Below, piece after piece: positions 9,973 to 31,664 of a DNA stretch of 32,256 nucleotides. This DNA comes from Oscillospiraceae bacterium (GTDB taxonomy: Bacteria; Bacillota; Clostridia; Oscillospirales; Oscillospiraceae): assembly GCA_024697625.1 (NCBI GenBank), contig JAILFJ010000072.1, positions 1 through 32,256 of the forward strand, read 5' to 3'. The notes beneath the pieces are model-generated. The model worked only from the letters and a program-made list of their open reading frames with translations. It made no database searches and was not told the DNA's origin. The first letter of the stretch is position 1. The number at the start of each line of letters is the position of its first letter. The position numbers and the translations under genes are program-made.

Positions 9973-11247
9973 ATGAAGTTAAACGAGGAGCAGCAGGCTT
10001 TGCTGGACGGCAGCCGCGGCGAGGTGATGGCGAAGATCATGAAGACCCTGGTCATGTACGGGGATGCCTTCGGCGCGGAGAGGATGGTTCCCGTGACCGG
10101 GAAGTACGGGCACACCGTCATCAGCTTCGGCCTCGGCGTTATGGATCCTGTGTATGACCTGTACGACGAGATCCTGTCCGCGGGGATCCTGCCGGAGCAG
10201 AAATTCACCGCCGACCCAAAACCGCTGGACCCGAAGGTCCCCTCCGGACTGCTGGACGACCTGGTGTTCAAAAAACTGATGTACAACCGACAGGAGCGCT
10301 ACGAGGCACAGCTTAGGAAGCTGGGAATCACGAAGGATGAAGACTATACCTGCGCCTGCTATCTGGACCAGGTCGGAAATATCCCCCGGAAAGGCGAGAT
10401 TCTCTCCTGGGCGGAAAGCTCCGCGGTCGTGTATGCGAATTCGGTCCTCGGCGCGCGCTGCAACCGCAACTCCGGCATCCTGGAGCTCATGGGAAGCATC
10501 GCCGGATGCGTTCCGGAATTCGGCCTTCTGACCGATGAGGGCCGGAAGGCGGACTGGATCGTCGAAGTGAAATGCGAGAAGAAGCCGGAGGCACAGCTTC
10601 TGGGTTCCGCAATCGGCATGAAGGTGATGGAGGACGTCCCTTACATCCGCGGTCTGGACCGCTGGCTCGGCAGGGAACTCAACGACAGTGCAAAAGCGTA
10701 CCTGAAGGACTTCGGCGCGGCGACCGCTTCCAACGGAGCAGTGGGACTCTACCACGTCGAAAACCTGACTCCCGAAGCGGTGGAACAGGGCGAGAGCCTG
10801 ATCCGGGAGGGGGCGCAGGTCTATGTGATCGACGATGCGGAACTGGAAAGGGTCTATCGGAACTATCCTGTAATCTGGAAGAAGCCGGACGCTAAGCCGC
10901 AGCTTGCCTTCATCGGATGTCCGCACCTGTCTCTGCAGCAGCTGACCGACTGGGCAGGAGCCGTGCTGAAGGGACTGGAGAAAAACGGACGGAAGAAGGT
11001 TGCGGTTCCGACGGTGTTCACAGCGCCGGTGCAGGTGATCCGTGAGTTCGAGAAGAGCATCTACGCATGGCCGCTGAGGCACAGCGGCGTTGTGCTGAGC
11101 TCAATCTGCCCGCTGATGTATATGAACAACCCGCTCTGCAAGTCCAAGGCAGTTCTTACCAGCTCCAACAAACTGAGAACCTATACCAGCGCAAAGTACT
11201 GTACCGATGCAGAAATACTGGAGATCATCACGGGAGGTGCGAAATGA
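9973..11247 (+). CDS. Aconitase X catalytic (large) subunit
   Basis: A protein of 424 residues matching the AcnX/DUF521 large subunit. Near the N-terminus is AFGAERMVPVTGKYGHTV. The cofactor-region cysteines include C163 (GARCNRNSGI), C316 (IGCPHLS) and C379 (SSICPLMYMNN), with ARCNRNSG and the terminal TSSNKLRTYT typical of the family. AcnX enzymes are Fe-S dehydratases. Bacterial members act on cis-3-hydroxy-L-proline and an archaeal member on phosphomevalonate; which applies here cannot be read from sequence. The ATG at 9973 has AAGGAG ten bases upstream, whereas the in-frame GTG at 9964 would leave one base. The stop overlaps the small-subunit start by 4 bp (ATGA). Confidence 0.9.
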   Translation: MKLNEEQQALLDGSRGEVMAKIMKTLVMYGDAFGAERMVPVTGKYGHTVISFGLGVMDPVYDLYDEILSAGILPEQKFTADPKPLDPKVPSGLLDDLVFKKLMYNRQERYEAQLRKLGITKDEDYTCACYLDQVGNIPRKGEILSWAESSAVVYANSVLGARCNRNSGILELMGSIAGCVPEFGLLTDEGRKADWIVEVKCEKKPEAQLLGSAIGMKVMEDVPYIRGLDRWLGRELNDSAKAYLKDFGAATASNGAVGLYHVENLTPEAVEQGESLIREGAQVYVIDDAELERVYRNYPVIWKKPDAKPQLAFIGCPHLSLQQLTDWAGAVLKGLEKNGRKKVAVPTVFTAPVQVIREFEKSIYAWPLRHSGVVLSSICPLMYMNNPLCKSKAVLTSSNKLRTYTSAKYCTDAEILEIITGGAK

Positions 11248-11705
11248 AAAGCTTTCAGGGACGCGTGATTGTGCCCGGTACCGCATCGGCCGAGGCGCTG
11301 GTGAGTCACGGCGGATTCAACACACTGGCCAGCTATCAGATGGCCCTGCAGTTCGGGGATCTGAAAGCGATGGGGAAGGACACCGAGGTTCAGTGCGGAG
11401 ATCAGAACAACCCCAATATCTATAAAAAACCGATGATGGGAAAAGCCCTCTGTCTGCCGCAGACGATCGGCTCGACCACGGGCGGAATGGTGCTCTTTAC
11501 GGCCTGTGCACTGGGAAAGCAGCCTGCCTGCATGCTGTTCTCCAAACCGATCGACTCGCTTGCAGCCTCCGGCGCGATCCTGGGCGATGTGTGGACCGAT
11601 GCTGTGATGCCCGTGGTGGACAGCCTGGGTGAAGAGTTTCTGGAGTATGTGCAGACCGGCATGACTGTGACCGTCAGAGACGGCGGTGTCGTCGAGGTTG
11701 CGTAA
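11244..11705 (+). CDS. Aconitase X swivel-domain (small) subunit
   Basis: A protein of 153 residues of the DUF126/AcnX small-subunit type. It starts MKSFQGRVIVPGTASAEALVS, has the conserved QCGDQNNPNIY segment, and carries S77 in LPQTIGSTTGG, the position of the presumed catalytic serine in this family. It folds as the swivel domain that closes over the large subunit's active site. GGGAGG precedes the ATG, which overlaps the large-subunit stop by 4 bp, giving stoichiometric coupling. The gene ends just before a long perfect hairpin. An upstream reading from 11067 would overlap the large subunit by 180 bases and is rejected. Confidence 0.9.
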   Translation: MKSFQGRVIVPGTASAEALVSHGGFNTLASYQMALQFGDLKAMGKDTEVQCGDQNNPNIYKKPMMGKALCLPQTIGSTTGGMVLFTACALGKQPACMLFSKPIDSLAASGAILGDVWTDAVMPVVDSLGEEFLEYVQTGMTVTVRDGGVVEVA

Positions 11706-11720
11706 AATACAGTATGATAA

Positions 11721-11761
11721 ATGACCATGAGGGACGGCGGAGAGCCGTCCCTCATGGTCAT
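11721..11761. terminator. Long perfect hairpin, probably a bidirectional terminator between convergent genes
   Basis: A perfect 18-bp stem (ATGACCATGAGGGACGGC at 11721-11738, complement at 11744-11761) with a GGAGA loop. It sits between the ends of aconitase X (plus) and the DMT transporter (minus). Neither side has a long T-run, so efficiency is uncertain, but the position is typical. Confidence 0.7.
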
Positions 11762-11797
11762 TATGTAAGCCGTCATGATGTAAACCGAAGCATTCTG

Positions 11798-12733
11798 TCA
11801 GACAGGCCGGCCGCGGCTTTCGCGGGGTTCCGACGGCGGCATGAGATGGGTAAGCAAAACAGCGGCAAACATCAGCGCTGCACCGATCAGCTCACGTACC
11901 GTGAGACGCTCGTGAAGAACAAGCCAGCCCGCGAACGCGCTGAAAACGCTCTCCAGACTCATGACCAGACTGGCGACGCTGGGGTTGACCCCGTCCTGAC
12001 CAATGATCTGCAGCGTATAGGCAATGCCGCTGGAAAAAACGCCTGCATAGAGTATGGAGGGGAGCGCCGAAACAAACGCCCCGGAGTCGGGATGCTCGGT
12101 CAGGAGCATCAGGACGGTGCTGAGCAGCGCCACCACCAGAAACTGAACACGCGAGAGGCGTACCGCATCCACGAGAGGACTGTAACGGTCAAGCAGCAGA
12201 ATCTGAACGGCAAAGAACAGGGTGCAGAGGAGAACCCAGGCGTCTCCGTACGCCAGAGAAAAGCGGTCTGCCTTCATACAGAGCAGATACAGCCCGATGA
12301 GAGCCAGCAGAACACCGACCCAGACCCGCGGAGAGGGCTGTCTGCGGAGGAAGATACTCAGGACCGGCACAAGGACAACATAGAGCGAGGTAATAAACCC
12401 GGCCTTGGAGGCGCTCGTGTAGCCGATGCCGATCTGCTGGGCAGCGCTGGCGGCACCCAGCATCATGCCGCAGAGGATACCGCCTTTCAGAAGCAGGAGT
12501 CGATCGGGTCCGCTTCGGGGCTTCCGGTCCGCCATGCCGCGGCGCGCGTACAGACGGTCCATCAGCGGGATAACAGGGGTCAGAAACAGGACGGCGATCC
12601 AGCTGCGCATGGCGAGAAAGGTGAACGGTCCGACAAGCTCCGCGCCCGTACGCTGCGCGACAAAGGTGGTCCCCCACAGGAAGGCAGTCAGCAGGAGAAG
12701 AAACGTATGAAAATTCTGTCTTCTGTGATTCAC
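11798..12733 (-). CDS. DMT superfamily (EamA-type) transporter
   Basis: A protein of 311 residues with about ten hydrophobic segments in two EamA repeats. The N-terminus reads FLLLLTAFLWGTTFVAQRTG, which is characteristic of the family. The second repeat ends near residue 290 and a short Arg-rich tail follows. These proteins are drug/metabolite exporters or amino-acid carriers; the substrate cannot be told. Translation starts at GTG (12733-12731), overlapping the TGA of the DUF6273 gene by 4 bp, so it is the fourth, translationally coupled gene of the VWA-MoxR operon. Its presence in that operon is unexplained and may be positional only. Confidence 0.85.
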   Translation of the reverse strand: MNHRRQNFHTFLLLLTAFLWGTTFVAQRTGAELVGPFTFLAMRSWIAVLFLTPVIPLMDRLYARRGMADRKPRSGPDRLLLLKGGILCGMMLGAASAAQQIGIGYTSASKAGFITSLYVVLVPVLSIFLRRQPSPRVWVGVLLALIGLYLLCMKADRFSLAYGDAWVLLCTLFFAVQILLLDRYSPLVDAVRLSRVQFLVVALLSTVLMLLTEHPDSGAFVSALPSILYAGVFSSGIAYTLQIIGQDGVNPSVASLVMSLESVFSAFAGWLVLHERLTVRELIGAALMFAAVLLTHLMPPSEPRESRGRPV

Positions 12734-13923
12734 TTCTCAGCACTCCCCGGCGGATTCTGCCTGCAGCGGTCTGCCCTGATCCACATGGCGGGACGGACCG
12801 CATAAACGTCCGTATCCACAAAGCTGCCGATCCGGACAACGGCTCCATCAGGGGTGACTGAGGCTGCAAAGCTGTTGTCAAAGCCCGGCGTGCGGAGCCA
12901 CCACCAGAAGCCCGATGAACGGGAGATATCATCCGCAAGCATGCCGGAGGCTTCCTCCACGCTCAGCAGAAAGAGCCGGTCCTGCGACTGCTCTCCGCCC
13001 CGGGAACCGAAAACGGGATTATCCGGTGTGCTGACGGCAGTGGGCAGAATCCGCTCCTGTTCCTCCGGAGTAAAGCTGAGCGGAAGAAAGACGGTGTTGA
13101 GCCATCTGCGCAGAGCACAGCTCTCCCAGGTGACCTCCAGCAGATCCGGATGATAGGGCAGCACGGCGACAGAGCCTTCGCAGAGCAGAAGCAGGCGGTC
13201 CTCCTTCCGGCACAGCACCCGCCAGCGGAGCGGCGTCTCGGCAGAGCCCTGCTTTCCTGTGATGCGGCCGAGGAGGATCCCTTCGCCCTGTGCCTGCTCA
13301 GGGGATCCGCTCTCGGTGAATATGCGCCGGATGCGGGGGAGGGGATCGAGGGCGTAGAACGCCGCAACGTTTACACCGACAACCGGCTTCCCGCCGATAG
13401 CGGCAGGAATCTCATAGACACGCTGCACTGTCCTGATACCGCAGATACATACGCCGCTTCTGACATAGCGCAGCCGGAACAGCTTACGCAGGTATGCCGC
13501 GTCCGGCTCCGTAAGCCCAAGCTCGAGATCCAGCTGCCGCTGCTCAAAGGCATCGAATTCGTCAGAATGGTAGTGTGCAGCGCGGTATTCCAGCAGCCAG
13601 GCTCTGGCATCCGGACTGGAGAATTCCGACGCAAGCGCAAACAGCTCTGCGAACAGCTCCAGACTGAGACGCCTTCCCGGTATCAGGACAGGAAGAGCCT
13701 CGGCCCGATCCGACCGGACTGCCTCCCGCAACAGCGCGGTCCGGTGTCTGGAAAGGGAGCGGGCGGAGAGACTGCCGGACAGTGCCTTCTCCAGCAGCAC
13801 GGGTACATGGTCCTCCGGCCGATTCTCCTCCAGTTCATCCTCGCTGACGGAAAAGCAGTGATTCACTGCCACGCCGCCGAGCGGCAAAAGAAACTGTACT
13901 GGCTTCTCCTGCTTCCTGCTCAT
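12730..13923 (-). CDS. Protein with C-terminal DUF6273 domain, third gene of the VWA-MoxR operon
   Basis: A protein of 397 residues. The N-terminal about 140 residues are helical and Leu/Ala/Arg-rich (VPVLLEKALSGSLSARSL, AEALPVLIPGRRLSLELFAE), possibly helical repeats. The middle, around 160-215, holds an IPAAIGGKPVVGVNVAAF segment like the BspA-type leucine-rich elements. The C-terminal about 150 residues match DUF6273: ALRRWLNTVFLP, NPVFGSRGGE, LFLLSVEEA, WWWLRTPGFDN and AVRPAMWI. The WLR...RPAMW pattern recalls C-type-lectin/FGE-like folds; that is an inference. The start ATG overlaps the MoxR stop by 4 bp. No signal peptide is visible, so it should act inside the cell with the ATPase and VWA proteins. 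Confidence 0.75.
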   Translation of the reverse strand: MSRKQEKPVQFLLPLGGVAVNHCFSVSEDELEENRPEDHVPVLLEKALSGSLSARSLSRHRTALLREAVRSDRAEALPVLIPGRRLSLELFAELFALASEFSSPDARAWLLEYRAAHYHSDEFDAFEQRQLDLELGLTEPDAAYLRKLFRLRYVRSGVCICGIRTVQRVYEIPAAIGGKPVVGVNVAAFYALDPLPRIRRIFTESGSPEQAQGEGILLGRITGKQGSAETPLRWRVLCRKEDRLLLLCEGSVAVLPYHPDLLEVTWESCALRRWLNTVFLPLSFTPEEQERILPTAVSTPDNPVFGSRGGEQSQDRLFLLSVEEASGMLADDISRSSGFWWWLRTPGFDNSFAASVTPDGAVVRIGSFVDTDVYAVRPAMWIRADRCRQNPPGSAEK

Positions 13924-15404
13924 GAATCCCCGTCCTCAAGCGCATCAAGCTCACGCAGAATCGTCTGCTGCCTCTCGTAGACAAGCAGTGCCTGATTGTG
14001 CCGATAATAGCCCTCGCTGCCGTAGCGGGCAATAAAGCGGGCGCTGTGGCTGTCGGCGGTGAGCTCGGTGACCAGAATCAGCAGTTCCTGGCCCTCGCCA
14101 AAGGCCCGCTCGCAGAAGGTGAAGGTGTTTTCCAGTGCCTCTCCGGTCTGTGCGGCGGCTTTCCGAACAAGCTCACGGCGGGCAGCAATGGTGTCCCGCA
14201 GGGCCGCTGTCATATCACCCGAAGAGCCCGCCGATTCGAGCGCCTGCTCCAGTGCGGCAACCGTCCGGCGTTCGGCAAGCTGATGGCTGCGGGAACTCTT
14301 CCCGGCGTGTCTGTCGGCAGAGAGAGATTCCTTTTTTCTCCCGATCAGAGCGGAGAGTGCGTCTGCGCTCTCGCCGCGCAGCTCTTTGGCGGCGGCCAGC
14401 AGACTGTCATTGACCTGCTCATCCGCCGCGATGGCAGAAAACTTCTCCGACAGCCCGGAGAGCAGCAGCCCGAGAAGGCCCAGCTTCTCGTCAAATCTGG
14501 CACTGCGGGCCCGGTCGAGGATCTCTTCGTCCGCCTCGCCGGCGAAGATGCGGTCGATCCGGTAATCGGACCTGTATTTATTGAAGAGGTCGTAATAGAG
14601 TGAAAAGCTCCTGGCGATCTCTCTGTTCTGCAGATACTGAATGACAAGCTCGGCGTCCACCGGCAGGCCGTGTTTTTCATAGAGGCGCAGCATGTCACTC
14701 AGGTCCGACCATCCGCGGGCGGTAACAAAGGTTTTTCCGTCCACGCCTGACTCTACCCGATAGAAATCGCTCTCCCGGATATCCAGGTATGAGCGGATTG
14801 CGGGGTGCACCAGGGTTTCGGCAGCGTACTCCTTCCAGGCTTTGTAATCCGGCTCGACGTCGATGCGCTTAAGCCGGTCCCAGGTCACGATGTCGAATTC
14901 GCGGACGGAGTTGTTGTACTCGGGAGGGTTGCCCGCTGTAACGACGATCCAGCCGTCCGGTACCCGGTGGCGGCCGAAAATCTTGAACTGCAGAAACTGC
15001 AGCATGGCCGGAGCCAGCGTCTCGCTGACACAGTTGATCTCATCGAGAAAGAGGATGCCTTCCCGAACACCGGTCTCCTCCATCAGGTCATAGACTGAGG
15101 CGATGATCTCGCTCATCGTGTATTCCGACACGCTGACTTCTTTCCCGCCGTAATTCTTCCTGGCGATATAGGGCAGGCCGATGGCGCTCTGCCGCGTGTG
15201 GTGCGTCATGGAATAGCTCACAAGCCCGACGCCCAGCTCCTGAGCAATCTGTTCCATGATTGCGGTTTTGCCGATGCCCGGGGGCCCCATCAGAAAGATC
15301 GGGCGCTGCCGTTCCGGCGGGATCTCGTATTCTCCGTACTCGTCCCTGGAAAAATAGGCGGTCATGGCGTTTTTGACCTGCAGCTTTGCCTGTCTGATGT
15401 TCAT
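13920..15404 (-). CDS. MoxR-family AAA+ ATPase
   Basis: A protein of 494 residues. The AAA+ core (about 20-260) has Walker A GPPGIGKTAI with K46, Walker B LFLDEIN with D121-E122, and a sensor-1-like VVTAGNPPEYNNS. A winged/lid region follows, then a long helical C-terminal extension (about 300-494) rich in Ala, Glu and Arg. MoxR ATPases work with VWA proteins as chaperones that insert cofactors or remodel targets. Here the VWA gene is immediately upstream, with a 4-bp overlap, and the DUF6273 gene immediately downstream, also 4 bp. The client is unknown. An older annotation might call it an ATPase of the dynein-related AAA_5 type; the two names describe the same core. Confidence 0.9.
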   Translation of the reverse strand: MNIRQAKLQVKNAMTAYFSRDEYGEYEIPPERQRPIFLMGPPGIGKTAIMEQIAQELGVGLVSYSMTHHTRQSAIGLPYIARKNYGGKEVSVSEYTMSEIIASVYDLMEETGVREGILFLDEINCVSETLAPAMLQFLQFKIFGRHRVPDGWIVVTAGNPPEYNNSVREFDIVTWDRLKRIDVEPDYKAWKEYAAETLVHPAIRSYLDIRESDFYRVESGVDGKTFVTARGWSDLSDMLRLYEKHGLPVDAELVIQYLQNREIARSFSLYYDLFNKYRSDYRIDRIFAGEADEEILDRARSARFDEKLGLLGLLLSGLSEKFSAIAADEQVNDSLLAAAKELRGESADALSALIGRKKESLSADRHAGKSSRSHQLAERRTVAALEQALESAGSSGDMTAALRDTIAARRELVRKAAAQTGEALENTFTFCERAFGEGQELLILVTELTADSHSARFIARYGSEGYYRHNQALLVYERQQTILRELDALEDGDS

Positions 15405-16759
15405 ACGTCCTCCAGTATTTCCTCCGGCTCCAGCGTGAGCCTGATCGCCCAGGGCGGAACCTCGTATTGATTGCCCTCGTTTTCCAAAAAAACAAAAGCG
15501 GTATCATAGCCGGGAGCCTTCTGCGGAAAGATTCCGCACCCGTCCGTAAAGTACAGAAGCCCCCTGAGCTGCGGCAGCTCTCCGGCCTGCCGCTGCCTCT
15601 CGATATAGTCAAAAACCGGCCGGAAATCCGTGCCGCCGAAGCCCTTCAGCGTGAGGCCTTTCAGCGCCGCATCAAGATCGCTTGTGCTGCTGATGCGCAC
15701 TTCGTCCTGAATCTGCAGATCGCACTGCAGAATGCGGACGTCTACCCGGCTGAAAAAGCTCTCGGAAGCTTTCAGTATGTTGAAGGTCTTTTGCAGAAAG
15801 GCGTGTACCAGCTCTTCCGAAATCGAGCCCGAGGTGTCCACGGCAATCACAAAAGAGCGAATTCGCAGATCTTCGCGATATTCCAGAGGCTCAATCAGCG
15901 GCATGTTGCCGTACAGCTGCAGCCCGTAGGTGTAGTAAATCCAGTCAAACTCCGCCGGGTCGAGCTGCATCACCTCGCCCCTCACGGCAAATTTCCTGAG
16001 GAAGGCGGCGTAGTCCCGCTTCTCCCGGTTCAGCCTCCGGAGCGCCCGACGCAGTCCGGCGGCGGCATCGCCCGCCTCTCGGGAAATGGTCTCCAGATCT
16101 GCCTCGATGCTGTCAGCCACGCTGCGCCATTCCTGCTCGGTTTCCATGGGCGGGGCGTTCGGCTCGGGGAGATCGGGCGAGTCCTCATTGCGCTCGTTCT
16201 GCCGGTCTCTGTTATTGTCTGAGGAAAACCATGCCCGGTGATCGTCGGCGCGGAACAGCTCCTCCAGGCGCAGGCGCTCCTCTTCCGGCAGGGGACTGTC
16301 AAGGAAGAAGCGGTAGAGCTTCTCGGCTGTAAACGGCTTTACGCGGTTCCGGAATGCTTCCAGCACGGCCTGCTGCTCTTCCTGCCGTCTGACGGCAGCT
16401 GAACGGAGATTCAGATCCGCAATCAGATCCTCCACGACCATGTCACAGGCCAGGGACCAGCTTTGCTGCTCCACCGGCGTGTGCAGATACATATGCCGGA
16501 ACACACAGTGCAGTACGCAGTGCAGATAGTCCCGCGCGGGGTTCGCCCGCTCTTCCTTATACCGGAGAAGCACATACATCGGCGAATAGGAGAAAGACTT
16601 CCCGTCGGTCCAGAGCGAACCCTTGGGCATCGGCGTAAAGCTCAGGCGGCACAGCGCATTCTCCATGAAACGCAGGTGCAGCAGCAGCGAGGCATGTGCA
16701 AGCTGCAGGATTTCTCCCGCCAGAAGATCGGCCTTCAGTTTTTTTGTCTGTTCATCCAT
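15401..16759 (-). CDS. VWA-like / DUF2201 putative metallopeptidase-related protein
   Basis: A protein of 452 residues. The N-terminal domain (about 10-130) is of the DUF2201 putative metallopeptidase type, with H80, H84, H89 and H93 in LHCVLHCVFRHMYLH and ACDMVVEDLI at 105-112. The usual HExxH Glu is Cys81 here, so proteolysis is doubtful. A charged linker (about 175-215) follows. The C-terminal VWA domain (about 300-445) has an intact MIDAS start, D308-T-S310-G-S312, and a later FTDGCG. VWA proteins bring the client to MoxR ATPases. It is the first gene of the four-gene operon, 65 bases from a predicted transcription start; the ribosome binding site is weak (AGGGC). Confidence 0.88.
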   Translation of the reverse strand: MDEQTKKLKADLLAGEILQLAHASLLLHLRFMENALCRLSFTPMPKGSLWTDGKSFSYSPMYVLLRYKEERANPARDYLHCVLHCVFRHMYLHTPVEQQSWSLACDMVVEDLIADLNLRSAAVRRQEEQQAVLEAFRNRVKPFTAEKLYRFFLDSPLPEEERLRLEELFRADDHRAWFSSDNNRDRQNERNEDSPDLPEPNAPPMETEQEWRSVADSIEADLETISREAGDAAAGLRRALRRLNREKRDYAAFLRKFAVRGEVMQLDPAEFDWIYYTYGLQLYGNMPLIEPLEYREDLRIRSFVIAVDTSGSISEELVHAFLQKTFNILKASESFFSRVDVRILQCDLQIQDEVRISSTSDLDAALKGLTLKGFGGTDFRPVFDYIERQRQAGELPQLRGLLYFTDGCGIFPQKAPGYDTAFVFLENEGNQYEVPPWAIRLTLEPEEILEDV

Positions 16760-16829
16760 GCCCTGTGCGTCCTATGCCGGCAGAAAAGTGAATATCCCGT
16801 CAGGACAGCCGGCGGTGCTGTATACCGTC

Positions 16830-16858
16830 AGAATATCATATGTTCAGATACAACTCAA
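16830..16858 (-). promoter_or_regulatory. Promoter of the VWA-MoxR-DUF6273-DMT operon
   Basis: On the minus strand, TTGAGT (16853-16858), a 17-base spacer, then TATTCT (16830-16835). It lies between the end of the tocopherol-cyclase-like gene and the VWA start codon. No terminator separates the two genes, so read-through is also possible. Confidence 0.55.
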
Positions 16859-16889
16859 GAAGAAAGGTGAGGAGAAGCGCTCAGGGGAT

Positions 16890-18026
16890 TCATTCAGGGT
16901 CATATTCTCCGTATTCGCAGCCGATGTGGGTGACGTCCGCTTCATCTACCAGAGCCAGCGCGCCGTCTTTTTTGTCATACAGCTTTACTGTGCCCCAGCC
17001 GTTGCCGCCGTTCCACAGACGGTTGTGACGCTTGCTGCCGTCCGGTGCTTCGTAATTCACCAGCAGCATGTCCGACTTCCGGCAGAAGACCTCTGTCTCC
17101 ATCACCGCATGGATATTCTCCTGGCGTACGTTCCAATGAACCAGATCGTCGAGTTCTTCAAAGGAGAAGTCGGTCTTTACCTTCAGATGCAGCTTGGAGA
17201 AATTGAAATCGTACTCCTTGCCCTCATAGTAAAATACCCCCAGCAGGCGGCGATCCAATGGTACAAAGTAGATCTTCGGTCTGCCGCCGCCGATATCGAA
17301 TACACTGTTCATGAGCTGCTTTCCCGTCACCCTGCTGACAAGGTGACTGGAAGACAGCCATACCCAGGGGCTGGTGAAATCCCGGCCCCAGTTTTTGTCT
17401 GCGTAGCCGTAGCTTTTCTCCGGGGTAACCGTGTACTTTTTGCCGTTGAAAGTGATCTCGCCGCGGAAGGCGCTCTTCATACCCTCGGCGTGCCAGTACA
17501 TGGCAAAGGCTTCAGCATCCCGCAGTGGCTTGCTTGCGCCGTAGCCCACGTTGAATGCGATCTGTTTGTCGATGGTCAGATCCCAGAACATTTCGCCAGC
17601 ATCGCACATCCATTCCGGATGCGCGGCCGCTTCCTCCGCTGTGACGGAAACGCTGCCCTTCAGAGCCGTTTCGCTGGCGAGGCAGTCGGCGGCCTCCACC
17701 CGATATGGCGCGGCCCAGTTCAGGTCAACATCCTTCCAGGCAAAAAAACGATGCAGCTGGCAGTGGACCGGACCCCAGGTGCCGGCTTTCACCATCAGAT
17801 AGGAGGGCTGCCTGCCAGCCGCCCTGTTCTCAGGCAACTGGCCGAGGACAGGCGTATCCCCGCCCAGGGAGGGATTGCAGACAAAGAACTCAATAAAGAA
17901 CGGCTTATCTTCACCGGTCACCGCATCCTGGGCTGTGAAGGAGTGCCACCACCAGTCGTAGCCGTGATGGGACAGCAGACCGTGGAGCATACATGCGTCC
18001 CGATTGACGTCGTGATGATTGAACAT
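16890..18026 (-). CDS. Tocopherol cyclase-like / lipocalin-like beta-barrel family protein
   Basis: A protein of 378 residues, rich in Trp, Tyr and aromatic-Gly patterns. The start region has SHHGYDWWWHSFTAQD, the middle PEKSYGYADKNWGRDFTSPWVWL, and the end RLWNGGNGWGTV. Those blocks match the bacterial tocopherol-cyclase-like family (PF14249 type), which folds as two lipocalin-like barrels. Anaerobic Firmicutes do not make tocopherol, so the real ligand is probably another lipid or isoprenoid; that is unknown. No signal peptide. AGGAAT precedes the ATG, and a perfect consensus promoter lies 83 bases upstream, so expression should be strong unless repressed at the adjacent inverted repeat. 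No other gene belongs clearly to the unit. Confidence 0.75.
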   Translation of the reverse strand: MFNHHDVNRDACMLHGLLSHHGYDWWWHSFTAQDAVTGEDKPFFIEFFVCNPSLGGDTPVLGQLPENRAAGRQPSYLMVKAGTWGPVHCQLHRFFAWKDVDLNWAAPYRVEAADCLASETALKGSVSVTAEEAAAHPEWMCDAGEMFWDLTIDKQIAFNVGYGASKPLRDAEAFAMYWHAEGMKSAFRGEITFNGKKYTVTPEKSYGYADKNWGRDFTSPWVWLSSSHLVSRVTGKQLMNSVFDIGGGRPKIYFVPLDRRLLGVFYYEGKEYDFNFSKLHLKVKTDFSFEELDDLVHWNVRQENIHAVMETEVFCRKSDMLLVNYEAPDGSKRHNRLWNGGNGWGTVKLYDKKDGALALVDEADVTHIGCEYGEYDPE

Positions 18027-24564: not shown

Positions 24565-25323
24565 TCAGCCCTCCTCGTGCCTCCGGAAGGCTTCCCCGAT
24601 GGAACAGGCTATCACATCGTCGTGCTTCGCCACTGTCTCGCAGATGCGCTTGAACTTGTTCCAGTTGCTCTCTTTGGTGCCGAAGTCAAACTCGTAGCCG
24701 TGGGCGAACATCAGGAAAAAGGCGTCCTCCTGTTCCGCGTCCAGATGGAAGAAGGCGTCCAGGCGCTCAAAGATATTCTTCGAGAGGTGCCATCCTCCCA
24801 GGGGCGTGACCAGCGGATCGGCCGGGAAAGAAAAACCTTTGCTGCTTGTGGCCACCCTCGCATATCTTATACCCGTGGTCTTCAGTGCGTCCCGGCTCTG
24901 CTTTGCGCCGATCCCGTAGGGGTAGGCAAAGCCAACTACCGGCTGGCCGAACAGCTCGGACAGGGCCTTAACGTCCCCGCCGATCTCCGCGCGGCGCTCA
25001 TTCTCTGTGCACCTGACCAGATTCACATGGCGGCAGGTGTGGGAGGCAATCTCAAAGCCCTTGTAGACCTGTACCACTTCGTCCGCCGGAATCCGAAAAT
25101 GCGGCACATAGGGCAGCAGATGGCGCGCCTTCGCCTCGTATTTCGCGGCGGGCATCTCCGTCATGCCAAGATTGCCGATCCGCCCCTCCCAGGTTTTCTC
25201 CCCGAACAGACCGGAATTGAGATGGAAGGTGGCGCCGAGGCGGTATTCTTTCAGAATCTCGATGATCTTCCTGTCCTGCTCCAGCCCGTCGTCAAAGCTC
25301 CAGGCAAAGTATTTCTTTCCCAT
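24565..25323 (-). CDS. NodB-type polysaccharide deacetylase family protein
   Basis: A protein of 252 residues from ATG 25323. The catalytic and metal residues of the carbohydrate esterase 4 fold are present: SFDDG with D11-D12 and SHTCRH with H95 and H99; a later FAYPYG is the third motif. There is no signal peptide, so it acts in the cytoplasm on small substrates, not on peptidoglycan. ATG has AAGGAGG with seven bases spacing, while the in-frame GTG just upstream has only four, so ATG is preferred. It overlaps the alpha/beta hydrolase stop by one base. In the esterase/GH3 operon it probably removes N- or O-acetyl groups from imported sugars. Confidence 0.88.
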   Translation of the reverse strand: MGKKYFAWSFDDGLEQDRKIIEILKEYRLGATFHLNSGLFGEKTWEGRIGNLGMTEMPAAKYEAKARHLLPYVPHFRIPADEVVQVYKGFEIASHTCRHVNLVRCTENERRAEIGGDVKALSELFGQPVVGFAYPYGIGAKQSRDALKTTGIRYARVATSSKGFSFPADPLVTPLGGWHLSKNIFERLDAFFHLDAEQEDAFFLMFAHGYEFDFGTKESNWNKFKRICETVAKHDDVIACSIGEAFRRHEEG

Positions 25324-26213
25324 CACAAGACCTCCTTGAAAAACGCGTCCATTTTCGTAAAGACCTCCCGACTCTCCGGGTACATGGGGTACATGACCGA
25401 GAACACATGCACCAGCTTGCGCTCCCTGCCCTTGGGGAAGCTCAGCAGCGTGTGGGCAAAGCCCTTTTCTGTCAGCAGCCGGTCGAACTTCAACGTATCC
25501 TTGCCGATCAGATCCTCTGCGCTGGAGACCAGAAACAGGGGCGGCAGTATGGCATCGCCCAGGAGCCTGGCCGGGTCAAGCAGATATTTCTCATGGGGTC
25601 TGCCCCTGTCGCTCTTGTCCGTGACCACATTGTTGATGGCGCACATCAGGTCGCGGCGCTGGGTGTCCAGCATAATGGAGACGAAGCCCGCCGCCCGGAA
25701 GGGGATGCCCGCGCCCTCGATGCCGAATGTCTCCTGCAGTTTCTTGCTGCCGTTGATGCTGAGCGCAAACAGGCTCAGCAACGCGCCTGCAGAGTCGCCC
25801 GTAAGAACGCAGCGATCCAGGTTCAGATGATACTCCGCCGCGTGGGCTTTCAGATAGCGCAGCGCCGCCATGCAGTCGTCGATCTGATGCCAGAGCGTGG
25901 TCTCGGGGATGCGGCGGTAGCTGAGACTGACCACCCGGTAACCAAGCCGCGCCCACTCGTAGTTGAAGTTGACATTGACCTCCTTGTAGCTAGCAAAGAG
26001 CCCGCCGCCGTGAATGTTGATGAGCACCGACGCATCGGCCGAGAGATCGGGCAGCTCATAGATGTCGAAGAGATGGCCCTGCCCGCCGTCGTTCAGATAG
26101 GACAGATCCCGGACGATATGCAGGTCGCTCAGGTCCTGCACCTGTTTGGCAAGCCGCTTGGCATCACCGGTTTCAAAGATGTGCCGCCAGAGCAAAACGC
26201 CGAGTTTTGACAT
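25323..26213 (-). CDS. Alpha/beta hydrolase (hormone-sensitive-lipase-like esterase)
   Basis: A protein of 296 residues. The oxyanion-hole motif HGGG is at 68-71. The nucleophile is S141 in TGDSAG, the acid D234 in SSAEDL and the histidine H269 in LVHVFSV, an intact HSL-type triad. No signal peptide. I chose the ATG (MSKLGV) with GGAGG ten bases upstream; an upstream in-frame start would begin inside the SGNH gene's end. It hydrolyses carboxyl esters such as acetyl or acyl groups on sugars. It sits between the membrane SGNH hydrolase and the NodB deacetylase, and its stop overlaps the next start. Confidence 0.88.
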   Translation of the reverse strand: MSKLGVLLWRHIFETGDAKRLAKQVQDLSDLHIVRDLSYLNDGGQGHLFDIYELPDLSADASVLINIHGGGLFASYKEVNVNFNYEWARLGYRVVSLSYRRIPETTLWHQIDDCMAALRYLKAHAAEYHLNLDRCVLTGDSAGALLSLFALSINGSKKLQETFGIEGAGIPFRAAGFVSIMLDTQRRDLMCAINNVVTDKSDRGRPHEKYLLDPARLLGDAILPPLFLVSSAEDLIGKDTLKFDRLLTEKGFAHTLLSFPKGRERKLVHVFSVMYPMYPESREVFTKMDAFFKEVL

Positions 26214-26217
26214 GGTC

Positions 26218-27033
26218 TTACGCCTCCTTCTCACTCAGGATTTCAATCAGATCCGCTTCCATTTTGGGGAACCACCATTCATAGTAACCCGCTTTTGTGG
26301 GATGAATGGGATCGTACATATAAAAGGCATAGGTCTCTGCGTCGATGGCATTGAAGGCCTCGTCCGTGTAGAGGTCAATCACACCGATGCCCCACTTGTC
26401 CCGCAGCTCAAACAGACGCTCCACCATGGCATCATATTCCGCACTGTCATAGTACGAGCCAGTGTAGAACACCACCGGGCAGCACCAGGTATCCTGACTA
26501 TAGCGGATGATCCACTCCATGGCCCCGGTGACCGTCTGGGTGTCGAGGGAGGCAAGATCTGTACTGTCGCTGATTTCTCCGATCGGCAACTTCATGGTAG
26601 CGTCGTTCGTGGAGAGCTGCACGACGACGCAATCGATCGGTGTGTTCGTATCGATCTGCCTTAAACGCCTGACGTAACTGTCCCCGTTTCCGAAAGCGAT
26701 GGCTGCCAAGGCAGAGGCCTTGTCCACCAGCGTTGTGCCGCTTTTGGCCTCCTTGATAGCCATGACGCCATCCAGTGTCTGAAACAGCTCCACAAAGGAC
26801 TGCCTCTCCGCCGCGGCTCCCTCGGTCACGCTGCTGCCGAGAAAGAGGATGGTTTTCCCGGCAAGCGGGGAATTCACATGCTTTTCCAGGCTGCCGATGT
26901 CGTATTCCGTCTGATTGCCGGGCGCCTCCGCGCGCTTTTTCGCTTCGATCGCCACGTAGATCTTCAACGCCGCATAGAACAGAAGCAATACAACCAGCAG
27001 GATCAAAAAAATGCGAATGATGCGTTTTTTCAT
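26218..27033 (-). CDS. Membrane-anchored SGNH/GDSL hydrolase
   Basis: A protein of 271 residues with one N-terminal membrane segment (about 5-29, IIRIFLILLVVLLLFYAALK). The catalytic domain is then outside the cell. Block I is FLGSSVTEG with S68 as the nucleophile; the usual Asp of GDS is Ser67. Block III is STND with N143, and block V is DPIHPT with D241 and H244. SGNH enzymes are acetyl- or acyl-esterases on glycans. It is the promoter-proximal gene of the operon and is divergent from the AraC gene. GGGGGG precedes the ATG at a usable distance. Confidence 0.85.
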   Translation of the reverse strand: MKKRIIRIFLILLVVLLLFYAALKIYVAIEAKKRAEAPGNQTEYDIGSLEKHVNSPLAGKTILFLGSSVTEGAAAERQSFVELFQTLDGVMAIKEAKSGTTLVDKASALAAIAFGNGDSYVRRLRQIDTNTPIDCVVVQLSTNDATMKLPIGEISDSTDLASLDTQTVTGAMEWIIRYSQDTWCCPVVFYTGSYYDSAEYDAMVERLFELRDKWGIGVIDLYTDEAFNAIDAETYAFYMYDPIHPTKAGYYEWWFPKMEADLIEILSEKEA

Positions 27034-27107: not shown

Positions 27108-27152
27108 GATTGTATTGTAAAATTGCTCTTTTTTCAGGGAGATGACAATCCA

Positions 27153-27869
27153 ATGTCCGAAACCGTCCATCAAAAGCTGCTCGACTCCGAAGAGAGCTAT
27201 CTCAACACTACCTTCTGGGATGTCCATCCCCTGTTTCTGCTGGTGCAAAACGGGGAGACGGCCCAACTCAAGAATCAGTTGCATGTTCAGCTGGAAAAGT
27301 TCCCGGCCGGGCGTATCACCAGGGATGAGCGCAAGCAGCTGGAGTACCTGACGGTCAGCCTGGTCAACACCTTCATGATTGCGGCCATCCAGGGAGGCGT
27401 ATACCCGCCGGAGGCCAATGCCGTGGCGGATCAGGCTCTGCGCCGCTTAAGCCAGCACAAGAGCGTGACGGAGATTCCGACACTTGTCAGCGAGGCTGCG
27501 CTCCGGTTCAGCGAGATGGTGAAGCTCACAAGAGACCGGGACACAGGCAACGTCCATGTGGAGAAGGCCAGACATTATTTATCCGACCATCTGACCCAGG
27601 AGATCCGCACCGAAGATATTGCCAAAGCCGTGGGCCTCAGCCCTTATCATCTCAGCCGCCTGTTCAAGACACACACCGGGATGACCATGCGGGAATATCT
27701 GATCCGGGAACGTGTAGAAGCTGCCAAGCAACTCCTGGCCGCCACGGACCGGACGATCCCGCAGATCGCATCCCTGCTGCGCTTCTGTGACCAGAGTTAT
27801 TTCACCATGGTATTCCGTAAGCATACCGGCCAAACCCCGGGGGAATATCGAAATAAGAATATAAGATAG
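27153..27869 (+). CDS. AraC-family transcriptional regulator
   Basis: A protein of 238 residues from ATG 27153 with GGGAG upstream. The last about 100 residues are a two-motif AraC DNA-binding domain: EDIAKAVGLSPYHLSRLFKTH, then REYLIRERVEAAKQLL, and CDQSYFTMVFRKHTGQTPGEYR. The first about 135 residues form an unrecognised helical effector or dimerisation domain. AraC proteins of this kind usually activate neighbouring sugar genes. It is divergent from the SGNH-hydrolase/GH3 operon and separated from it by the inverted repeat at 27078-27107, its likely target. It converges on wecB. Confidence 0.9.
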   Translation: MSETVHQKLLDSEESYLNTTFWDVHPLFLLVQNGETAQLKNQLHVQLEKFPAGRITRDERKQLEYLTVSLVNTFMIAAIQGGVYPPEANAVADQALRRLSQHKSVTEIPTLVSEAALRFSEMVKLTRDRDTGNVHVEKARHYLSDHLTQEIRTEDIAKAVGLSPYHLSRLFKTHTGMTMREYLIRERVEAAKQLLAATDRTIPQIASLLRFCDQSYFTMVFRKHTGQTPGEYRNKNIR

Positions 27870-27983: not shown

Positions 27984-29108
27984 TTACACGACGAAGGGAG
28001 AATACGGCTTTCCCTCGAGAATATCCGCGATTCGTTCACAGGCATGTCCATCGCCGTAAGGGTTGCAGGCTTGGCTCATTTTTAAGTATTCGTGCTTGTT
28101 TTCAAGCAGAAGCGTGAAAGAGCGATAGATCGTTTCCTCATCCGTACCGGTCAGGCGGAGCGTTCCGGCTTCAATGCCTTCCGGACGTTCGGTCGTATCC
28201 CGCATTACCAACACAGGAACCCCAAAAGAGGGGCACTCCTCCTGTATACCGCCGGAATCCGTCAGACAGAGGAATGACCTGGCTTCAAAATTATGGCAAT
28301 CAAAAACGCTGATCGGTTCAATCAGATGAATTCGGTCGCAGCCAGAAAGCTCTTCTTCCGCAGTACGAAGCACAAGAGGATTCATATGAACCGGGTACAG
28401 AGCCTTACAATCCGAATGCTCTTCAAGCACACGCCGAATGGCCCGGAACATGTGCCGCATGGGAACGCCGAGGTTCTCCCTTCGATGGGCGGTAATGAAT
28501 ATCAGCCTGTCCCCTCCGACCCAATCCAGCTCCGGGTGGGTATAGTCCTTCCTGACCGTATGCTTCATCGCGTCTATCACGGTATTGCCGGTAATATAGA
28601 TGTTCTCAGGTCTTCTGCCCTCCCTGATGAGGTTGGAGGCGGATAACGGCGTTGGAGAAAAATGATACTGGCTGATAATTCCTGTAGCTTCCCGGTTGAA
28701 CTCTTCCGGGTAGGGAGAATCGATATTGTAGGTTCTCAGCTCTGCCTCCACATGGCCCACAGGAATCCGCAGATAGAAGCAGGAAAGAGCAGCGGCAAAT
28801 GACGTTGTCGTATCCCCATGTACCAGAACGACATCGGGGCGCTCGCTTTCCAGTACGCTCTTCAATCTGTCCAGAATACCTGCCGTAATATCAAACAGAG
28901 ACTGGCGCTCTTTCATGATGCTGAGATCGTAATCAGGAACTACACCGAAGACAGAAAGGGCCTGGTCAAGCATCTGCCGGTGCTGTCCGGTCACACAGAC
29001 CGTTACTTTAAGAGCGTCTCTTTTCCTGAGTTCCAATACCAGGGGGCACATTTTGATCGCTTCGGGACGCGTTCCAAAGACGCACAAAATTTTCTTTCTT
29101 CCCGACAT
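27984..29108 (-). CDS. wecB: UDP-N-acetylglucosamine 2-epimerase, non-hydrolysing
   Basis: A protein of 374 residues. It interconverts UDP-GlcNAc and UDP-ManNAc. The family blocks are clear: FGTRPEAIK at the start, VHGDTT with D99, the HVEA.LRT block, TAHRREN, and TDSGGIQEE followed by RDTTERPEG. One deviation is Glu123 where almost all homologues have Gly (HVEAELRT rather than HVEAGLRT); the codon is GAG, one base from GGG. It follows the NfrB-like synthase on the same strand after 109 bases, so it very likely supplies its sugar donor. The upstream gap holds a small CGTAC/GTACG hairpin. GGAG is 12 bases before the ATG. Confidence 0.92.
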   Translation of the reverse strand: MSGRKKILCVFGTRPEAIKMCPLVLELRKRDALKVTVCVTGQHRQMLDQALSVFGVVPDYDLSIMKERQSLFDITAGILDRLKSVLESERPDVVLVHGDTTTSFAAALSCFYLRIPVGHVEAELRTYNIDSPYPEEFNREATGIISQYHFSPTPLSASNLIREGRRPENIYITGNTVIDAMKHTVRKDYTHPELDWVGGDRLIFITAHRRENLGVPMRHMFRAIRRVLEEHSDCKALYPVHMNPLVLRTAEEELSGCDRIHLIEPISVFDCHNFEARSFLCLTDSGGIQEECPSFGVPVLVMRDTTERPEGIEAGTLRLTGTDEETIYRSFTLLLENKHEYLKMSQACNPYGDGHACERIADILEGKPYSPFVV

Positions 29109-29217
29109 AGCTGCGCTTCTCTCCTTCCTGCCTTCATTTCAATTCGGACAACGTACCTTCCGTACGCCTGTATTCGGGCAATGCCCGCCGCCGGAACCGC
29201 CTTTTCCGAGTCTTTGA

Positions 29218-31308
29218 TTATTTCTCACCGGAGACGGCTTCCGACGGACATGGATAAGCAAGCCCCATGATTTCGCGGATCTCCTCCTCTGGACGGCTGT
29301 TGAAGCCGGCATAGATGCCAATCAAAACAGCCTGCTCATAGCTGATGAGACCCGCATGATACATCTGCAGAGAAGAAAGATGCCTGTGAGGGGCAGCTTC
29401 TTTTTCCGTGCCCGTTATCGCGGCTTGCAGAGCTTCTTCAAGGAAGCGCGTAGTTATGTACATCCGGCATATGCTGCAGCCGCTCATCTCCATAAATTCT
29501 TGCAGATTTTGATCCGTTGTCGAATCGCACACGCCGATGAACCACTGATTATTGTCAAATGACAACGGCAGTATTTTGAGCATTTGCAGTTTCTTGATGT
29601 CAAACTGCTTCAGTGCATCTTCATAGTCCAACTTTGCAGCGACCTGATCGGGTATGTACTGTATGTGCTTCACATGCCCCAAGGCCCGTATCATCTGTTC
29701 TTCCGTGATGATTCTTCTTTCGATCAGGTAATCGACGATATGCTGTCCGTGCGCTTTATCCATATGCTGCAGCACGTCATATAACTGCTTTGGCGTCACA
29801 TTTCCCTGTGCAATCAGGGTATCTCCAAGCATTCTGCGATATACGCGGAGCTGATCCTTAGTCAGGAAGGTGTGATCTGTCTTTGCCCATTTGACGGTTT
29901 TTGCTGCGCTGTCGCGATGCGCTTTGTCAGAACGGCTTGCAGCTGTCGGACGTCCGGTTAACCTCTGCCGGATGGCACAAACGGTTGCTGTAAAATTGAT
30001 GATATTGCCATAGATCAGGCGAATAGGAAAGAGCGGCGGCAGCAGGCAGCCGAAGAACACGCTGCGAAAACCGTATACACGATACAAGGCATAGGCGCGA
30101 AATGCCTGACGAAACACAGTGATCACGAAAACGATCAGCGCCAAGGCCGGCACCGGAGATCCCGGCAGATACAGCGGCTCAAAGTGGAAAAGCATCGCAA
30201 TGATACAGTAAACGGAGGCTAAATATCCAAACAGAGGTATGAGATTCAGAACCTTTGCCTTCAAATCTTTATAGAACGAATACCGTCCTGCAAGGGATAT
30301 GCCTCTTGACCGGAATACATCCCGGAGATGGACAGATTGCATTGTAACCCCATAGGTCCATCTGGTTTTCTGCCGAACCGCCGCACGGAAGGTAGATGGG
30401 AAAAGGGCTCTGGTGGTGATAAAATCTGCGCGGATTTTGCCGTTTTTCATCACGCGGGGAAGACGGTTCAGTACATAGTGGAGGGGAATGCCCTTTTTGT
30501 ACAGGTTCAGGGAGAGAAGATAGTCCTCTGTCAGGCTCTCCGACGGCAGAACATCTTCGTCCCCGAATTGTTCAATACACTTTCTGGACAAGGTAAAACC
30601 TGTCCCGGCACAGGGAACAAAGGCATTCAAATTCTTACGCTGTACCAGCGTAATATAATGGTTTTCTGCAAATTCATCCGCATAGGTCGTGGTCGTTAGC
30701 TGCCGAAAGAAATTGCTGAAGCGCGGCATTTCGATGATCGGAAATACGGGGAATTGAAGCGCGTCATGATAATCGATCAGGTAATTTGCGGAAAGCAGCT
30801 CATAGCTATGAATCACATCCTCAGAATCATGGACGGTCAGGGATGCGAAATGGATATGATGCTCCTGCTCAAAATATCGAATCTGCCTGATCACATGATT
30901 AATATTCTGCGCCTTGGTCGTAGGGCCATCCTTGCAGTTGATCACTGCGTGCACATTGGGATAAATCGCACTGGCCGCGTTCACAGCCGCAATCGTATCC
31001 GGGTCATTTGGATATACGCCGATAAACACATGATACATGGATTTGGGATAGTCTGTTGTGTTTAGAAAATTTGTGATCATATCCCCGATGACATTTGCTT
31101 CTTGCCAGCTTGCAATGGCGACCGCCAACATCTTTGGCGGCGTATTTCGCAATGTGTCAAAGGAAAGAACGTCATCTTTGGCTTCTTTCCTGTGCAGCAA
31201 AGCGCTGACAGATGCGCATATGACCCATATTGCATCGTCAAACCCGCAGATCAGGTAGGTCAGTATCAGTATAAATCCAAGAACACGAATGATGTCTTCC
31301 AAATTCAC
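29218..31308 (-). CDS. NfrB-like membrane glycosyltransferase (GT2) with C-terminal MshEN domain
   Basis: A protein of 696 residues. One N-terminal membrane segment (about 6-35) is followed by a GT2 catalytic domain with the acidic motif HDSED (D161, E163, D164), GTGFTLSR, catalytic TED 260-262 and QKTRW 313-317. Several further membrane segments follow (about 345-445). Residues about 480-545 match the MshEN/T2SSE_N c-di-GMP-binding module: RMLGDTLIAQGNVTPKQL with L494-G495, then a second repeat GQHIVDYLIERRIITEEQM. The second repeat has His-Ile-Val where Arg-Leu-Gly is typical. E. coli NfrB has the same architecture and is reported to polymerise a ManNAc-based glycan under c-di-GMP control. 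GTG start with GGAG eight bases upstream; wecB follows. Confidence 0.88.
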   Translation of the reverse strand: MNLEDIIRVLGFILILTYLICGFDDAIWVICASVSALLHRKEAKDDVLSFDTLRNTPPKMLAVAIASWQEANVIGDMITNFLNTTDYPKSMYHVFIGVYPNDPDTIAAVNAASAIYPNVHAVINCKDGPTTKAQNINHVIRQIRYFEQEHHIHFASLTVHDSEDVIHSYELLSANYLIDYHDALQFPVFPIIEMPRFSNFFRQLTTTTYADEFAENHYITLVQRKNLNAFVPCAGTGFTLSRKCIEQFGDEDVLPSESLTEDYLLSLNLYKKGIPLHYVLNRLPRVMKNGKIRADFITTRALFPSTFRAAVRQKTRWTYGVTMQSVHLRDVFRSRGISLAGRYSFYKDLKAKVLNLIPLFGYLASVYCIIAMLFHFEPLYLPGSPVPALALIVFVITVFRQAFRAYALYRVYGFRSVFFGCLLPPLFPIRLIYGNIINFTATVCAIRQRLTGRPTAASRSDKAHRDSAAKTVKWAKTDHTFLTKDQLRVYRRMLGDTLIAQGNVTPKQLYDVLQHMDKAHGQHIVDYLIERRIITEEQMIRALGHVKHIQYIPDQVAAKLDYEDALKQFDIKKLQMLKILPLSFDNNQWFIGVCDSTTDQNLQEFMEMSGCSICRMYITTRFLEEALQAAITGTEKEAAPHRHLSSLQMYHAGLISYEQAVLIGIYAGFNSRPEEEIREIMGLAYPCPSEAVSGEK

Positions 31309-31320
31309 GGCTGCTTCTCC

Positions 31321-31509
31321 TTACTGATTATTCCATACTCTGCCCGAGTACATCCCCACAAAGGTTCTGTTGACGATCTGATCGCGGCGGTTTCTGATAC
31401 GGTTCACATTTGAAAAAGACACACCGAACTTTTCCGCAGGCGCCGTCTGTATCCTGCTGTTTGCAAGCATTCGTGTCTTCAAATCAAATTCTACATTATA
31501 TTGAAGCAT
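31321..31509 (-). CDS. Small basic ORF, possible helix-turn-helix protein, upstream of the NfrB-like gene
   Basis: A frame of 62 residues with GAGGGGG seven bases before its ATG, ending 12 bases before the NfrB-like start, so it is probably first in the operon. The middle reads APAEKFGVSFSNVNRIRNRRDQI, which has helix-turn-helix spacing (as in regulators and resolvase-type domains). There is no other known domain. It may be a small regulator or just a coupled leader peptide. Confidence 0.5.
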   Translation of the reverse strand: MLQYNVEFDLKTRMLANSRIQTAPAEKFGVSFSNVNRIRNRRDQIVNRTFVGMYSGRVWNNQ

Positions 31510-31664
31510 ATGACTTCCCCCTCAGAACATCAGCCTACTAAGCAAAGTAATATATCACGAGTTACTGCAGATTTCCACCTTCAAAATACAAAAGAAGTCG
31601 AAAAGATGGAATAAAAGAGTGCAGATTGCGGTAGCTATGACAATGCAATGGGACAACCTGAAGT

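Follow-up and report, generated by a model that had tools for sequence, protein, structure and literature searches.

Escherichia coli NfrB (b0569), whose NCBI product name is 'cyclic di-3',5'-guanylate-activated glycosyltransferase', needs WecB, is activated by cyclic di-3',5'-guanylate (c-di-GMP) and has a role as phage N4 receptor; the two genes are remote from each other, with nfrB at 0.59 Mb and wecB at 3.97 Mb on the 4.64-Mb circle. Here we describe a new form of the NfrB system from outside Proteobacteria, one linked to donor synthesis, found in a stretch of 32,256 nt (hereafter the window; contig JAILFJ010000072.1, assembly GCA_024697625.1) from the metagenome-assembled genome (MAG) of an Oscillospiraceae bacterium of the class Clostridia, in which a gene for an NfrB-type synthase is directly followed by wecB. 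A sequence-only reading of this DNA, which had rightly placed wecB elsewhere in E. coli, took the pair, together with a small upstream gene, for a c-di-GMP-controlled operon for a polymer of N-acetylmannosamine (ManNAc). We consider it rather likely that nfrB-wecB is a horizontally acquired two-gene cassette for a ManNAc-based surface polysaccharide, with an MshEN-type regulatory part; the case for the gene pair is stronger than that reading could know, and the case for c-di-GMP control of the window protein is weaker.

The nfrB-wecB locus

On the minus strand, the window contains in this order an open reading frame (ORF) of 62 amino acids (aa), the synthase gene and wecB, with spacers of 12 and 109 bases and sequences like Shine-Dalgarno (SD) sites ahead of all three:

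31509..31321, minus strand: ORF of 62 aa, preceded by an SD-like sequence and ending 12 bases before nfrB; either a leader peptide or a non-gene
31308..29218, minus strand: nfrB-type gene (696 aa; GTG start; AAGGAG 8 bases upstream) for a glycosyltransferase family 2 (GT2) synthase
29859..29389, minus strand: MshEN-type domain, synthase residues 484–640
29108..27984, minus strand: wecB (374 aa; ATG start; SD-like GGAG 12 bases upstream) for a non-hydrolysing UDP-N-acetylglucosamine (UDP-GlcNAc) 2-epimerase

The common strand and the 109 bases between synthase and wecB were as first described, and no terminator-like site was found between them on this strand, so that co-transcription is plausible.

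The synthase is 29% identical to E. coli NfrB over 628 aa (E 3e-70), an alignment that covers part of the C-terminal domain. Homology extends across the GT2, membrane and MshEN parts in the same order, which places the protein in the NfrB family in a broad sense; the NfrB equivalog NF008411 of NCBIfam matched residues 8–586 with 275.9 bits, under its cut-off of 1170, and was matched by all nine members of an NfrB alignment (best E 2.9e-109). The GT2 residues and membrane segments of the sequence-only reading were borne out by a match to Pfam GT2 PF13641 (E 3e-39) and about four predicted membrane helices. The motifs YPND (residue 99), HDSED (160), TED (260) and QKTRW (313) are invariant in a comparison with eight relatives, apart from S in HDSED and T in QKTRW. 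The structure prediction that this reading had proposed, run in AlphaFold2 with nine sequences (mean predicted local distance difference test score, pLDDT, 78; predicted template modelling score 0.79), gave a long N-terminal helix, a mixed alpha/beta core, three more long helices and a separate C-terminal domain.

Likewise, the identity of wecB was upheld, with 472 bits to TIGR00236 (cut-off 210). The product shares 187 identical aligned residues with E. coli WecB (b3786) and keeps the residues aligned with D95, E117, E131 and H213 of that protein, which we take to be catalytic; it is the single wecB match in its MAG (89% completeness). WecC is the usual partner of WecB, and no WecC relative was found in 88 NfrB loci plus the window (E 1e-10); the product of the pathway is therefore likely to be UDP-ManNAc itself, which is very probably the donor of the synthase. 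The same 88 loci and the window contained no relative of NfrA at E 1e-3, the rest of the window's own genome not being searched, in line with the claim that no outer-membrane partner lies nearby.

Recurrent linkage of nfrB and wecB

A scan of contigs with the NfrB alignment retrieved 368 relatives, and linkage was counted in the best 80 of them, those most like the window. A wecB gene lies within 1 kb of nfrB in 18/80 loci (145 kb of flanking sequence), including a partial one at locus L108, and in 16 of these within 300 bases. No further locus was added between 1 and 3 kb (245 kb of flank), where the lone count was a second piece of L123, and a single one between 3 and 10 kb, in 625 kb of flank, i.e., more than four times the sequence of the first bin. 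A near wecB almost always directly adjoins nfrB, a tight linkage that is not explained by chance. The linked gene varies in placement (downstream, upstream or on the opposite strand), and the linked loci span Bacillota, Actinomycetota (L091, L106) and Kiritimatiellota (L124). Clustering of the neighbours from 84 loci, including the window, ranked wecB at the top, with 16 loci within 1.5 kb, followed by an ABC-ATPase-like cluster with four; no second partner was as frequent as wecB. In a separate set of eight loci five were repeats and, among the other three, L044 has wecB 1.5 kb off.

Linkage has changed repeatedly along the NfrB phylogeny. On a tree of 74 rows (L055, L106 and L108 left out), parsimony needed 11 changes when the 14 rows linked within 300 bases were scored, or 13 with 17 rows, adding the looser L044, L119 and L123; the starred, well-supported branches alone force seven or nine of them, respectively. 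Co-occurrence across genomes pointed in the same direction: wecB exceeded the cut-off in 54/57 NfrB genomes vs. 281/387 genomes of a class sample (Fisher p 1e-4), a comparison weakened by sets that were not matched in taxonomic make-up or completeness, the 57 genomes searched, of 81 listed, being those that best match the window and mostly MAGs of uncertain completeness. Before removal of its four NfrB carriers, the class sample had wecB in 285/391 genomes and GGDEF domains in 267/391.

Several further observations speak against a conserved partnership. Shuffled labels averaged 13.1 and 15.6 changes, slightly more than observed, so linkage is only slightly clustered on the tree; 20 of its 71 inner branches are open, and a change may stand for a loss just as for a gain. 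In 62/80 loci conservation of the pair fails, with no wecB within 1 kb, although some of these stop at contig ends; this is the very outcome that the sequence-only reading had named as refuting it. The three genomes under the wecB cut-off were those of L045 and L089, with no match, and L061, with 209 vs. 210 bits; L045, which is unlinked and has no wecB in its MAG, carries the nearest NfrB relative on the tree. Even so, the pattern fits selection for UDP-ManNAc supply, and the proposed placing of donor synthesis beside polymerisation is now backed beyond the window by recurrent linkage and genome co-occurrence. The repeated close placing of wecB and nfrB is independent evidence for UDP-ManNAc as the donor of the family.

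The MshEN-type domain and c-di-GMP

The C-terminal MshEN module had been predicted from its letters, and its identity was supported by some profiles and not by others. The NCBIfam model NF053729 ('c-di-GMP_motif, MshE-related') matched residues 494–544 with 41.2 bits, over its cut-off of 38, and matched 9/9 members of the NfrB alignment at E 1e-3 or better. Additionally, a profile of the nine NfrB sequences retrieved solved structures of MshE and of the N-domains of PilB and PilF (MshE 5htl, E 6e-10; 5tsg, 6e-14; 8pdk, 5e-7; best PilF 6f8l, 3e-17). Conversely, Pfam MshEN (PF05157) scored 17.4 bits, below its gathering cut-off of 23.1, and the window C-terminus alone reached MshE only at E 0.065. 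In the AlphaFold2 model, ten-residue blocks over the domain had pLDDT values of 64 for the first, 58 for the last and 74–95 for the others.

The MshEN consensus consists of two R-L-G...Q ligand motifs, a pattern also seen in the aligned MshE row, and the window protein does not show both. Motif 1, RRMLGDTLIAQG, keeps the outline, with L-G-D and the inner G present, M replacing R and M replacing the closing Q; it shares with the RPLGQILLENQ of E. coli NfrB an Arg two places before LG. In motif 2, GQHIVDYLIERR, H-I-V replaces R-L-G, which is present in both E. coli NfrB and MshE, and V replaces Q, so that the closing Gln is gone from both motifs; most of the nearest relatives retain at least the Gly of motif 2, as in GEQIGEYL. 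A receiver domain is present but, since motif 2 is without R-L-G and both closing Gln are lost, c-di-GMP binding by the window protein is doubtful.

Genomic context is more favourable for the family than for this protein. GGDEF domains were found in 56/57 NfrB genomes (all but that of L082) vs. 263/387 of the class (p 5e-8), with thresholds of E 1e-3 for the 57 and 1e-20 for the class, although all 56 hold up at 1e-20 too. An ORF with a GGDEF-type motif, detected by motif pattern, lies within 1.3 kb of nfrB in 7/83 loci (L044, L050, L053, L057, L064, L099 and L102), of which L044 and L053, the two checked, were confirmed as GGDEF by Pfam; ten further motif matches lie at 2.7–9.4 kb. The window's own genome has 20 GGDEF matches, 19 of them over cut-off. 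The difference in thresholds and the fact that GGDEF is common in this genome anyway count, like the lost motif residues and the low Pfam score, against the explanation that we prefer. No Rfam family, c-di-GMP riboswitches being sought, reached its gathering score in the window. At 609–1880 and 1883–3196 (plus strand) the window also encodes two adjacent paralogous membrane proteins, which we take from their motifs to look like HD-GYP proteins and which are possibly c-di-GMP phosphodiesterases.

Together, domain and genome content make regulation of the NfrB family by c-di-GMP quite probable. For this very protein such regulation is possible but somewhat doubtful, so that the control claimed by the sequence-only reading is plausible for the family and weak here. 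The best-surviving alternative, which we consider unlikely without dismissing it, is that the ManNAc polymer is made but the domain no longer binds c-di-GMP, being a structural remnant or a site for another ligand, and that transcription or donor supply determines the output. It would account for the divergence of GQHIVDYLIERR from the GEQIGEYL-like motifs of close relatives and for the sub-threshold Pfam score and the weak match to MshE; however, NF053729 still exceeds its cut-off, motif 1 of E. coli NfrB (RPLG) likewise deviates from that of MshE and yet NCBI names this protein c-di-GMP-activated, and the genome is rich in GGDEF domains. An MshEN-type regulatory part, most likely one through which c-di-GMP switches the synthase on in the family, stays in the model that we prefer.

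Proposed mechanism

In this model, WecB would convert UDP-GlcNAc to UDP-ManNAc, which the membrane GT2 synthase would take up on the cytoplasmic face, polymerise, and thread as a growing chain across the single membrane; with the presumably monoderm envelope of the host, no outer-membrane porin would be required. That the synthase both makes and exports the chain is probable. It combines acidic motifs, QxxRW and membrane helices, the signature of processive GT2 enzymes. Foldseek returned BcsA cellulose synthase as the five top matches, followed by a viral hyaluronan synthase (E 3e-11 to 9e-8), with low TM-scores to the query (0.32–0.41); NfrB was absent among the best 50 matches shown.

Alternatively, the synthase could act non-processively, transferring sugars one at a time to lipid or protein. 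The roughly four predicted membrane segments, fewer than in BcsA, and the mannosyltransferase 6yv7 among the fold matches would agree with this, but the QxxRW and TED motifs, the ranking of BcsA and hyaluronan synthase and a BcsB-family gene after nfrB in a candidate division WOR-3 locus (L121) make it improbable. Very improbable is that wecB serves another pathway, e.g., ManNAc of the wall teichoic acid linkage unit, and stands beside nfrB incidentally: as the sole match in the MAG it would have to meet any other need for ManNAc, most NfrB loci have wecB elsewhere and WecBs of the genus are close to that of the window, but tight linkage recurs across arrangements and phyla, and a close wecB (E <1e-100) occurs in only 31/102 genus genomes including its own, many of them incomplete MAGs, so it is not an apparent core need there.

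Origin of the gene pair

In the 101 other genus genomes, which include many incomplete MAGs, NfrB searches gave only 20 weak matches (best E 1e-7), to the MshEN part or to a glycosyltransferase fragment; at E 1e-20, NfrB was found in 4/399 other genomes of the family and 3/390 other genomes of the class. The window NfrB belongs to a clade of 12 rows (support 100) whose other members are nine Lachnospiraceae and two unplaced Clostridia, apart from own-family copies such as that of Sporobacter termitidis (L083). The guanine-plus-cytosine (GC) content is 0.485 in nfrB and 0.516 in wecB vs. 0.573 in the first 27 kb of the window. Three further features lie upstream of the 62-aa ORF:

31549..31577, minus strand: promoter-like site ahead of the 62-aa ORF, TGGAAA-17-TATATT with a TG preceding the second hexamer
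31860-31827, minus strand: terminator-like hairpin, just after the tRNA-like fragment
31924-31865, minus strand: 3' half of a gene resembling tRNA-Ser(TGA), with 79% identity to an intact tRNA-Ser(tga) gene of the host on contig C179

Such 3' tRNA fragments are a common trace of site-specific integration, and this one is possibly what is left of an attachment site bordering an integrated element beyond the contig end. Clade, GC content, absence from the genus genomes searched and tRNA fragment together indicate that nfrB is likely to have been acquired, and make it plausible that both genes were transferred jointly. Judged from these sequence features, nfrB was probably acquired by horizontal transfer; the donor was probably Lachnospiraceae-like, a direction of transfer that we infer, and the cassette would have come from it.

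The phylogeny of WecB is less clear. The closest relatives of the window WecB are those of four Lachnospiraceae in which the gene is linked to nfrB (support 89), with 78% identity to that of L053. Against a foreign wecB, G029, a WecB of the same genus, joins the next starred set of six rows (support 98), and the tree does not separate WecBs of the genus from nfrB-linked ones; wecB could therefore be native. The MAG contig may also contain a chimeric join before its nfrB part; between 12.8 and 16.8 kb it has 72–82% DNA identity to two genus genomes, and is thus genus-like. As regards vehicles, 27 plasmid records matched at an E limit of 1e-20, all with less than 60% identity and several chromosome-sized, and the ten organism names among the matches listed were all Gram-negative. 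Phage records gave no match at the same limit, and viral contigs one distant partial match.

Other features and neighbouring genes

The promoter-like site is of a kind not enriched in this sequence, with four such sites found vs. 5.3 expected from shuffled sequence. The 62-aa ORF had been called helix-turn-helix-like and part of the unit, which found no support: neither Pfam (to E 1) nor NCBIfam (to E 0.01) returned a match, and a search for relatives in 15 related loci, over up to 900 bases ahead of nfrB, gave a sole match at E 1.4 (L055 had no upstream sequence, and the frame for L054 and L108 begins inside nfrB). We therefore rejected it as a regulator. Beyond wecB, the window has an AraC-type regulator gene (27123–27869, plus strand), convergent and located between the wecB side and a run of genes for a polysaccharide deacetylase, an alpha/beta-hydrolase esterase and a GDSL lipase (24565–27033, minus strand).

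Some NfrB loci contain other candidate partners. In L121 (positions 10001–17183), nfrB is followed in a row by the BcsB-family gene, two genes for 396 and 526 aa, the second of which falls in one cluster with a DUF2334 protein, and the start of wecB; the whole looks like a fuller exopolysaccharide operon. A protein of 255–259 aa is encoded after nfrB in L118, L119 and L123, of Acidobacteria/Aminicenantes type; that of L118 has no Pfam match and, as judged by eye, the protein could be an outer-membrane barrel replacing NfrA. Two clusters with three loci each lie directly downstream of nfrB (L067, L069 and L070; L080, L082 and L083); the members scanned were DUF2334 (L067) and PMT_2 (L083), possible modification partners. 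Finally, in the Butyrivibrio locus L108, nfrB is split over two frames and wecB is short at the N-terminus, indicating a decayed or poorly assembled pair.

Significance and comparison with known systems

It is conceivable, at somewhat less than even chances, that these loci represent a portable minimal exopolysaccharide module of monoderms, in which two genes supply the donor enzyme, the polymerase-exporter and the receiver for a second messenger. Such a module would move between families of Clostridia and would have been assembled or reshuffled repeatedly in Bacillota, Actinomycetota, Kiritimatiellota and other groups, and its receiver would be undergoing retuning or loss in certain hosts, that of the window included. 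What was an enterobacterial curiosity, the synthase behind a phage-receptor glycan, becomes a wider two-gene system that is testable without an outer membrane. Should the system produce a ManNAc polymer, its carriers, rumen and gut Clostridia among them, would bear a surface glycan that is amenable to control by c-di-GMP and a candidate receptor for their phages.

The window protein resembles E. coli NfrB in its N-terminal helix, a GT2 core with YPND, HD(S/A)ED, TED and QKxRW, more helices and a C-terminal MshEN-type domain; it differs in its Clostridia host and its degenerate second ligand motif. Whereas nfrA and ybcH adjoin nfrB in E. coli, in the window this place is taken by wecB, with no NfrA or YbcH relative in the window, and whereas E. 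coli WecB has WecC beside it, the window WecB is without a WecC relative. The domain is like the MshEN domains of MshE, PilB and PilF, which the nine-sequence profile matches, but it is fused to a synthase and has lost the second R-L-G. With BcsA cellulose synthase and viral hyaluronan synthase the protein shares the synthase fold and QxxRW; unlike BcsA, it carries an MshEN-type domain in place of PilZ.

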